From Blastocatellia bacterium (lineage in GTDB: Bacteria > Acidobacteriota > Blastocatellia > HR10 > J050), in the NCBI GenBank assembly GCA_025054955.1, contig JANWZE010000050.1, positions 1 through 64,000 on the forward strand: a stretch of DNA of 64,000 nucleotides, in the 5' to 3' direction. Of this stretch, positions 26,395-28,124 are shown piece after piece. The first letter of the stretch is position 1, and each line of letters starts with the position of its first letter. A program made the translations under genes and the position numbers. The notes below the pieces were generated by a model, which was given only the letters and a program-made list of their open reading frames with translations, had not been told where the DNA came from and did no database searches.

Positions 26395-26589
26395 TAAATC
26401 CCTGGGGCATGGTGTGCTTCAGTCGTTCTGATGACCTAGGATTGTCCTTAAATTCGGCGGCACTGGTCGAACCGGCAGCCGGGCCACTCATGGTTGGTAG
26501 AGTGAGAGAAAATAGGGTCCGGTTGATTGATGAGTTTGTACGGGTTCTGGAGTCAATCGTCAGTGTGGCAGGCCACGATAAAGAAAAAC

Positions 26590-26660
26590 CGGGTGGGCCG
26601 TTTTGCCCACCCGTAAAACTAAGGAGGTATTCGTGGTGGTACGTGGTCACCCTCTTAGAC
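26590..26660 (+). ncRNA. structured repeat unit 1 (hairpin + 40-nt stem-loop)
   Basis: A perfect 9-bp hairpin (CGGGTGGGC, loop CGTTTT, GCCCACCCG) at 26590-26613 is followed by a 40-nt block from CTAAGGAGGT to ACCCTCTTAG (26619-26660). Its ends can pair over 10 positions with one mismatch. Read on the minus strand, the 9-bp hairpin is followed by GTTTTTCTTT and looks like an intrinsic terminator. Whether the unit works as an RNA, a terminator or a leader is not settled. Confidence 0.5.
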
Positions 26661-26782
26661 TCAATTTGGAGGTAGTAAGTTGCCTAAATTTTTTTATGGC
26701 TCGGGGTATGATGGAGATTTGCAACCCACCTGAAAAAAGAAAAAAGCGGGTGAGCCGTTTTTCGAGCCCACCCGAAAGCTAA
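26633..26782 (+). CDS. short ORF 1 in duplicated leader (49 codons)
   Basis: A GTG-started ORF of 49 residues placed 5 nt after a consensus AAGGAGG. It begins VVVRGHPLRLNLEVV and has a basic tail. Its TAA (26780-26782) lies within the Shine-Dalgarno region of short ORF 2, so the two could be translationally coupled. There is no similarity to a known protein that I recognise. The Shine-Dalgarno is inside the left arm of the stem, so the structure could control it. Confidence 0.3.
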   Translation: MVVRGHPLRLNLEVVSCLNFFMARGMMEICNPPEKRKKRVSRFSSPPES

Positions 26783-26818
26783 GGAGGTATTCGTGGTGGT
26801 ACGTGGTCACTCTCTTAG
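26748..26818 (+). ncRNA. structured repeat unit 2 (hairpin + 40-nt stem-loop)
   Basis: Second copy of the unit, 160 bases downstream of the first by the start codons. The hairpin is CGGGTGAGC ... GCCCACCCG with one mismatch. The 40-nt block (26779-26818) is identical to unit 1 except for one C to T change in the right arm, which turns a G-C pair into a G-U pair in plus-strand RNA. Conservation stops within a few bases outside the stem ends. On the minus strand the hairpin is followed by CTTTTTTCTTTTTTC, a strong terminator-like tail. Confidence 0.5.
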
Positions 26819-26858
26819 ACACGGAATGCCAGTTTCGGGTTGCCCAAAAGCTATGTGA
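26793..26858 (+). CDS. short ORF 2 in duplicated leader (21 codons)
   Basis: A GTG-started ORF of 21 residues, VVVRGHSLRHGMPVSGCPKAM, directly after AAGGAGG. The first nine residues match short ORF 1 apart from Pro to Ser, then the two diverge at once. That boundary coincides with the end of the RNA stem, so conservation may reflect structure rather than peptide sequence. Confidence 0.28.
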   Translation: MVVRGHSLRHGMPVSGCPKAM

Positions 26859-26944
26859 TTGTGTAGGTGTCGGAGGGATTCCTATTGCGCGTGATTTATT
26901 GGCTATCCAGAGCAGTAAACACCTCTGAGGTTCGTGTTAACTGG

Positions 26945-26974
26945 TTGACATCGTGACAGATTAGGCGGATAATA
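26945..26974 (+). promoter_or_regulatory. putative sigma70 promoter of the TonB-like gene
   Basis: TTGACA (26945-26950, full consensus) and GATAAT (26969-26974) are separated by 18 bases. The start codon at 27120 is about 140 bases downstream. This promoter would bypass the duplicated leader. Confidence 0.55.
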
Positions 26975-27119: not shown

Positions 27120-28124
27120 ATGAAGGAACCGACTTTTGTTATGTTTGCTCCGCTTGAGGAGGAATCGCTCTTGACTCGTCTGGGTCATGAGTTGCGCGAT
27201 AGTTCCCGTGACTTTCTGGCCGACCCTCGTGGGTATATCAGGAGCACGTTCTCTCAAGACGCCTATGGTAAAAGAAGAGCGAGAGTGATCTTCCTGGGTA
27301 GTGTTCTCACCCTGTTTCTCTTAGTGTTGAGTGTCGGCATTGGTGCTTTGCTTCGGTTCTTACATACGCCGGAAATTGTGAGTGTTTTGGAAACACAAGC
27401 GCAAAAGATTAGTTATGTGGAGCCGCCCCCGCTGACTCCTTTGCCCGCGGCCCCCAAGCAGAGCCAGAGAGCTGGTGGTGGCGGCGGCGGCGGCAATAAT
27501 GAACCAAATCCTCCTTCGTTTGGGCGCCTGCCTCGAGCAGAGTTAACGGTTCCACTGATAAGTCCAACCGTTCATCAGCCGAAGATTAAGAACCCATCGT
27601 TGCCTGTTGAGCCGACGATTATGGCTCAACCGGAATTAATCCCCAAGATGGATCCTAATTTGCCATTAGGTGACCCCAGTAGTCGCTCATTGATTCCTTC
27701 TGACGGACCCGGTTCCGGTGGCGGTATTGGTACGGGTAAGGGAGGTGGTGTTGGTTCAGGGGATGGTCTAGGCGTCGGTCCAGGTAAAGGATTTAACATC
27801 GGTGGCGGTAATCCTTCAATAGGAGGAGGAGACAGGGATAGGGACCGTATTGTTCAGTCCCGACCGCAAATCCTCAATCGTCCCAAACCTGATTGGACTG
27901 AAGAAGCTCATCGCAATCGCATCCAGGGAGAAGTGGTTTTGAGCGCCACATTCGCTGCGGATGGAACCGTCCGCGATATTCGCGTCATTCGCGGGCTAGG
28001 CTATGGATTGGACGAAAAGGCGATTGAAGCTGCTAAGCTGATCAAGTTTATTCCAGCGCGTGATCAATATGGCCGGCCGATTGATGTTCGCCAGCGTATC
28101 ACGGTTGACTTCCGGTTGTTGTAG
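27120..28124 (+). CDS. TonB-family energy transducer-like protein
   Basis: A 334-residue inner-membrane-anchored protein. A cytoplasmic N-terminus of about 60 residues is followed by one membrane helix (about 59-82). A long Pro/Gly-rich periplasmic spacer has Gly-rich tracts at about 117-125 and 195-235. A C-terminal TonB domain follows (about 250-334): RPKPDWTEEAHRNRIQGEVVLSATFAADGTVRDIRVIRG and ARDQYGRPIDVRQRITVDF. It may transmit proton-motive force to outer-membrane receptors or belong to the TonB-like M56-associated group; no ExbB/ExbD gene is seen nearby. AAGGAGG lies 8 nt before the ATG; the in-frame GTG at 27111 overlaps the Shine-Dalgarno and is rejected. Confidence 0.85.
   Translation: MKEPTFVMFAPLEEESLLTRLGHELRDSSRDFLADPRGYIRSTFSQDAYGKRRARVIFLGSVLTLFLLVLSVGIGALLRFLHTPEIVSVLETQAQKISYVEPPPLTPLPAAPKQSQRAGGGGGGGNNEPNPPSFGRLPRAELTVPLISPTVHQPKIKNPSLPVEPTIMAQPELIPKMDPNLPLGDPSSRSLIPSDGPGSGGGIGTGKGGGVGSGDGLGVGPGKGFNIGGGNPSIGGGDRDRDRIVQSRPQILNRPKPDWTEEAHRNRIQGEVVLSATFAADGTVRDIRVIRGLGYGLDEKAIEAAKLIKFIPARDQYGRPIDVRQRITVDFRLL

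Follow-up and report, generated by a model that had tools for sequence, protein, structure and literature searches.

The window, by which we mean the whole 64,000-nt stretch of Blastocatellia DNA analyzed here, contains two closely similar units beside a gene for a TonB C-terminal-domain protein. Specifically, a 46-nt block occurs at 26615-26660 and again at 26775-26820, 160 nt from start to start and with 96% identity; when the hairpins are included (26585-26665 vs. 26742-26820), the identity is 89%. The original prediction had described two units at a 160-base spacing with one C/T difference inside 40 nt, an AAGGAGG with a GTG-started frame in each block, and a stop of the first frame inside the second AAGGAGG region, all of which was borne out. 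It had also allowed that minus-strand hairpins with T-runs might be terminators; both are present, and this proved to be the correct way of reading the locus. In shuffled windows, a 32-mer of the repeat had 0.00 expected occurrences. No further copy of the pair was found in the 4.69-Mb genome of the window, and a comparison of the units with plasmids gave no match, on which grounds a dispersed repeat or plasmid element was rejected. We interpret the feature as a tandem pair of putative sRNA genes on the minus strand, each predicted to encode an RNA of ~67 nt whose family is new but whose kind is known, and we put the probability of a minus-strand sRNA gene at roughly 0.88. The features, with copy A and copy B denoting the two units, are as follows.

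26679-26684, minus strand: copy A -35-like element GGCAAC (-36 to -31), invariant in 11 units from 10 genomes
26655-26660, minus strand: copy A -10-like element GTCTAA (-12 to -7), RTCYNA in 11/11 units, 18-nt spacing invariant
26582-26648, minus strand: copy A predicted sRNA, ~67 nt, +1 at 26648, conserved from GACC to the U-run, covariance model E = 2.9e-19
26616-26648, minus strand: copy A invariant single-stranded 33-nt core, with the anti-Shine-Dalgarno (anti-SD) sequence TACCTCCTTAG at 26619-26629
26580-26613, minus strand: copy A predicted intrinsic terminator, a 9-bp hairpin (26613-26590) plus U-run, hairpin 100% paired in 11 sequences
26839-26844, minus strand: copy B -35-like element GGCAAC, same invariant motif and spacing
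26815-26820, minus strand: copy B -10-like element GTCTAA, same RTCYNA pattern
26740-26808, minus strand: copy B predicted sRNA, ~69 nt, +1 at 26808, covariance model E = 5e-19
26776-26808, minus strand: copy B 33-nt core, with the anti-SD at 26779-26789
26737-26774, minus strand: copy B predicted intrinsic terminator, hairpin 26774-26747 plus U-run
26945-26973, plus strand: promoter-like TTGACA-17-GATAAT of the TonB gene, 11/12 sigma-70 match, downstream of both units
27120-28124, plus strand: TonB C-terminal-domain protein, divergent neighbor (Pfam TonB_C, E = 2.7e-14)

Each 160-bp unit, when read as minus-strand sequence, comprises an ECF-sigma-like promoter (GGCAAC-18 nt-GTCTAA), a 33-nt core (GACCACGUACCACCACGAAUACCUCCUUAGUUU) that begins at the predicted +1, a GC hairpin, and a U-run. 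The conserved stretch opens at GACC, 7 nt past the -10 element, and closes at the U-run. The terminator sequences, which are present on the minus strand only, are CGGGTGGGC...GCCCACCCG followed by GTTTTTCTTT in one copy and CGGGTGGGC...GCTCACCCG followed by CTTTTTTCTT in the other. Further, the single changed pair of the copy B hairpin is G-U in minus-strand RNA and A-C in plus-strand RNA, and the block plus hairpin, folded as minus-strand RNA, has z = -3.9 and -3.1 in the two copies, better than 200 of 200 shuffles each. The CU-rich anti-SD stretch (ACCTCCTTAG) is invariant and unpaired outside the terminator hairpin, its sole other predicted pairing being with the promoter arm.

With a covariance model, the unit was recovered from each of the 10 genomes searched in this order of Acidobacteriota (class Blastocatellia), at E values of 1e-25 to 1e-18; among the other 152 genomes of the class, none exceeded 20.4 bits, i.e., chance level. 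A minus-strand sequence search likewise detected it in the nine remaining genomes of the order, with no convincing score in any more distant genome. The named carriers are Blastocatellia/Acidobacteriota MAGs, HRbin08 and HRbin10 among them, and the tandem arrangement is peculiar to the genome of the window, each of the other nine having one strong copy. When the 11 units from the 10 genomes were anchored on GACC, the alignment was gap-free from -70 to +17, with GGCAAC invariant at -36 to -31 and (A/G)TC(T/C)NA at -12 to -7, where T-11, C-10, and A-7 are invariant. The 18-nt promoter spacer has zero invariant columns (16 of 18 fall below 0.8 bit). From +1 onward, the sequence GACCACGTACCACCACG(A)ATACCTCCTTAG(T/C)TT is invariant except for one T/C position and the optional A, which is missing in all five genomes of the g4 group. 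The terminator hairpins vary in length and loop yet are 100% paired, with a T-rich tail after them and one compensatory, doubly changed position (A-U, G-C, G-U). The variable parts across the order are the promoter spacer, the hairpin loop, and the flanking genes. These limits suggest that the block starts at a would-be ECF-type transcription start and stops at an intrinsic terminator, and since the flanking genes differ between families, the unit appears to be independent. The predicted promoter geometry and terminator are thus kept in 11 units through variable contexts, as in a free-standing gene. The unit, its strand, its promoter geometry, its terminator, and its presence throughout the order are read directly from the DNA; that it is transcribed is what we infer.

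GGCAAC-N18-RTCYNA is invariant across the units, the exact GGCAAC-18 nt-GTCTAA pattern occurs in the genome of the window at the two units and nowhere else, and a relaxed pattern turned up a single additional site in the window and 1.39 Mb of further stretches. A search for further promoters of this type, or for a sigma factor gene tied to the unit, yielded none linked to it. Transcription of each copy would probably begin at GACC under an ECF-type sigma factor. Hfq, on which sRNAs of the MicA/RybB type draw, has a gene in each of the ten genomes. Six of these (G000, which is the genome of the window, G001, G002, G004, G005, and G006) show two to three Hfq-like matches, one strong and one or two weak; the weak ones lie mostly in longer open frames and are possibly Hfq-domain paralogues.

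The original prediction had placed the feature on the plus strand, as a TonB gene leader in which the SD would be sequestered and short ORFs coupled, possibly peptide-sensing. On this reading, the two arms of the 40-nt stem do pair at 7 to 9 of 10 positions when G-U is counted, and AAGGAGG-GTG resembles a translation start. However, the promoter-like site of the TonB gene lies downstream of both units, which argues that they are outside its leader, and the linkage is not kept: a TonB gene also adjoins the unit in G001, G002, and G003, whereas genomes of another family of the order have it flanked by a TonB-dependent receptor gene on one side and a convergent aminotransferase gene on the other, a TonB gene being absent from its vicinity and the place of the receptor sometimes being taken by a ribosomal protein S1-like gene (judged by eye). 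For the TonB gene, then, the features of a cis-acting leader or riboswitch, i.e., a 5' UTR position on the same strand with conserved linkage, were not found. Further, the stem is formed by CTAAG of the -10 region (GTCTAAG) and CTTAG of the core. Since the variable arm belongs to the promoter -10 region, pairing of the stem is interrupted in every relative, with all five g4 genomes affected at one and the same position. As for the GTG ORFs, they are what the anti-SD core gives when read as its reverse complement; in relatives, the frames run for 6, 6, 6, 11, 11, 19, 30, 37, or 56 codons and share only VVVRG(H/R), which is imposed by the conserved core, so neither coupled short ORFs nor a peptide-sensing leader is supported. 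Finally, the promoter, the +1, and the terminator boundaries of conservation all fall on the minus strand, and minus-strand transcription with the hairpins as terminators, which the original prediction had itself named as the outcome that would speak against it, fits the sequence evidence best. We therefore regard the plus-strand leader as highly improbable. Of the earlier suggestion of a tandem regulatory RNA, the regulatory RNA and its tandem arrangement stand, on the opposite strand and as free-standing genes in place of a leader. More generally, the case cautions that what looks like a stem-loop with an SD and a short ORF can, on the other strand, be an anti-SD sRNA with its promoter. The neighboring sodium:solute symporter gene shares the strand of the sRNA in G001 and G002, whereas in the window it points the other way, owing to a local rearrangement.

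A slightly less remote reading, though still a very unlikely one, is that the block is no more than a pair of terminators, bidirectional or nested, or else a repeat that yields no RNA, and stops read-through between the symporter and TonB genes. The presence of two terminator-like hairpins within one intergenic region is in keeping with this; however, conservation is highest in the 33-nt core, which lies beyond the hairpin and is accompanied by a promoter at fixed spacing, and nine other genomes hold a single strong copy in differing contexts. One strong copy per genome in different contexts likewise indicates that the unit is not a mobile or dispersed repeat.

The minus-strand sRNA, as predicted, carries the anti-SD sequence ACCUCCUUAG; ACCUCCUUA is identical to the classical 3' end of 16S rRNA. 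In the genome of the window, the 11-mer TACCTCCTTAG occurs in the two units only, and its exact 11-nt complement is absent elsewhere; in the ten genomes, the 11-mer is confined to this sRNA and to one second element in the two genomes of the g2 group. Could the extended sequence simply reflect a longer 16S tail? A 16S tail pattern search, run as a control, matched at non-rRNA sites only. The base preceding AAGGAGG is T in 32% of other genes vs. 50% of receptor genes (G004, G006, and G007), and so slight a T preference in nonreceptor genes argues against a longer 16S complement, by which a 16S rRNA ending in CCUCCUUAG is excluded, only indirectly.

Candidate targets were sought among the TonB-dependent, carboxypeptidase-regulatory-domain-type receptors, of which there are 36 to 52 genes per genome in the five genomes used for the SD counts (G000, G001, G004, G006, and G007). 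The counts were made in stretches chosen around receptor genes, and one simple rule set gene starts in both the receptor and the other group. The exact extended complement of CCUCCUUAG, CTAAGGAGG, serves as the SD of 18 of 130 receptor genes vs. 1 of 666 others; among AAGGAGG-bearing genes alone, it is found in 18 of 51 receptors vs. 1 of 34 others (p = 3.5e-4, a value that overstates independence). The counts are not fully independent, since the receptors are paralogous and G004 and G007 share orthologues. In one family of the order, the enrichment is 17 of 79 receptor genes vs. 1 of 362 other genes, and this, too, is read from the sequence; the genome of the window lacks this excess. We further compared predicted duplex energies, receptor minus other, with those obtained when the CCUCCUU core was kept and the rest of the sRNA was shuffled 100 times. 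The differences were -4.7 in G004 (shuffled, -2.0 ± 0.8), -4.8 in G006 (-1.4 ± 1.0), and -2.8 in G007 (-0.3 ± 0.9), and in each of these genomes 0 of 100 shuffles matched; in the window's genome and G001, the preference was insignificant (reached by 21% and 9% of shuffles, respectively). Among individual genes, the HRbin08 receptor beside the sRNA (TAAGGAGG...ATGTGGTACGTG) has a predicted duplex of -33 kcal/mol, and a G004 receptor with AGGAGGTATCGTGG has one of -38 kcal/mol. As a separate observation, receptor SDs are stronger overall, with GGAGG in 120 of 130 receptor genes vs. 223 of 666 others.

The SD enrichment, the duplex energies, and the presence of Hfq together favor repression of receptor mRNAs at their SDs. 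In the mechanism we propose, the RNA would consist of an unstructured 33-nt 5' part holding the copy of the 16S anti-SD and an intrinsic terminator; it would pair, probably with Hfq, over the SD and start region of mRNAs, chiefly those of TonB-dependent outer-membrane receptors, and thereby block ribosome binding, so that receptor synthesis would fall while the envelope sigma factor is active. That a trans-acting sRNA represses receptor translation as its main role has, in our estimate, about even odds: support is clear in one family and weak in the window's own genome, to which we infer its extension. Alternatively, the minus-strand sRNA could have another main job, such as titrating ribosomes or an RNA-binding protein (Hfq or a CCAC-binding one) or acting on unrelated mRNAs through its 5' 17 nt, which we consider a serious if lesser prospect. 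The entire 33-nt core is invariant, exceeding the need of one SD-pairing site, no bias toward receptor starts was seen with its invariant 5' 17 nt, and the receptor signal is insignificant in the window's own genome; on the other hand, in three genomes the match between receptor SDs and the sRNA extends past the SD. A 5' seed search of the ten genomes gave ~11 scattered one-mismatch or wobble matches outside the sRNA genes, with no enrichment overall. One of these matches (G006:C105:75625) directly follows the start codon of a PQQ-dehydrogenase-like gene, where 14 nt (GGTGGTACGTGGTC) are perfectly complementary to the sRNA 5' end, possibly by chance.

Receptor repression would, in its broadest form, be a lineage-wide acidobacterial envelope-stress circuit in which a very small RNA copying the 16S 3' end, expressed under an ECF sigma factor, turns down ~40 to 50 receptor genes via CTAAGGAGG; so extended, the proposal is tentative and rather unlikely. 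If true, the circuit would have evolved independently as a counterpart of MicA/RybB, with its regulon code written in the ribosome-binding sites of the mRNAs. MicA and RybB are sigma-E-dependent enterobacterial sRNAs of ~70 to 80 nt with the promoter consensus GGAACTTTT / GTCAAA (PMC1804206). Like them, the putative RNA described here is short and intergenic, with a putative ECF-type promoter (GGCAAC / GTCTAA) and a terminator at its end, promoter and RNA both conserved, and outer-membrane protein mRNAs as targets, here predicted (PMC1804206). Unlike them, it belongs to a different phylum, its pairing part is an anti-SD copy, and it has no sequence relation to them, no Rfam family being reached at gathering score (chance matches only, at E up to 10). 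Similar in motif are the alpha-r14 sRNAs (e.g., NfeR1), which have three hairpins with an ultraconserved anti-SD, CCUCCUCCC, in the unpaired regions of each, likewise an unpaired motif for pairing with many SDs (PMC10746234). The present RNA differs in having one hairpin and one different motif in its single-stranded 5' part, with no sequence or Rfam match, and does not belong to that family. The CcsR1-4 sRNAs of Rhodobacter sphaeroides are four tandem homologous stress sRNAs that are cut out of a transcript shared with an upstream gene and bear CCUCCUCCC in their loops. They share with our units the tandem homologous copies and a conserved CU-rich anti-SD motif, whereas here two free-standing promoter-sRNA-terminator units are predicted. 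A known RNA family was also rejected as the identity of the unit: RF02454 (ncr982, a Bacillus sRNA) matched copy B weakly, at 20.5 bits where the gathering score is 50 (E = 2.6), which is chance level. Our literature search found no described sRNA of this kind for Acidobacteriota. The unit is defined to the base in its predicted promoter, +1, core, and terminator, and its regulon can be put to the test, the receptor genes being predictable from the SD extension. If the proposal holds, repression of outer-membrane proteins by sigma-controlled sRNAs has also arisen beyond the Proteobacteria, and here the SD serves as recognition code.

The second element sharing the 11-mer, at G001:C74:39236 and G002:C147:5223, is an unrelated candidate anti-SD RNA with ACCTC-type motifs (CCCACCTCAC and CCTCTAGAACCGTACCCTACCTCCTTAG), which runs into a GC hairpin with a T-run and is 81% identical between the two genomes.
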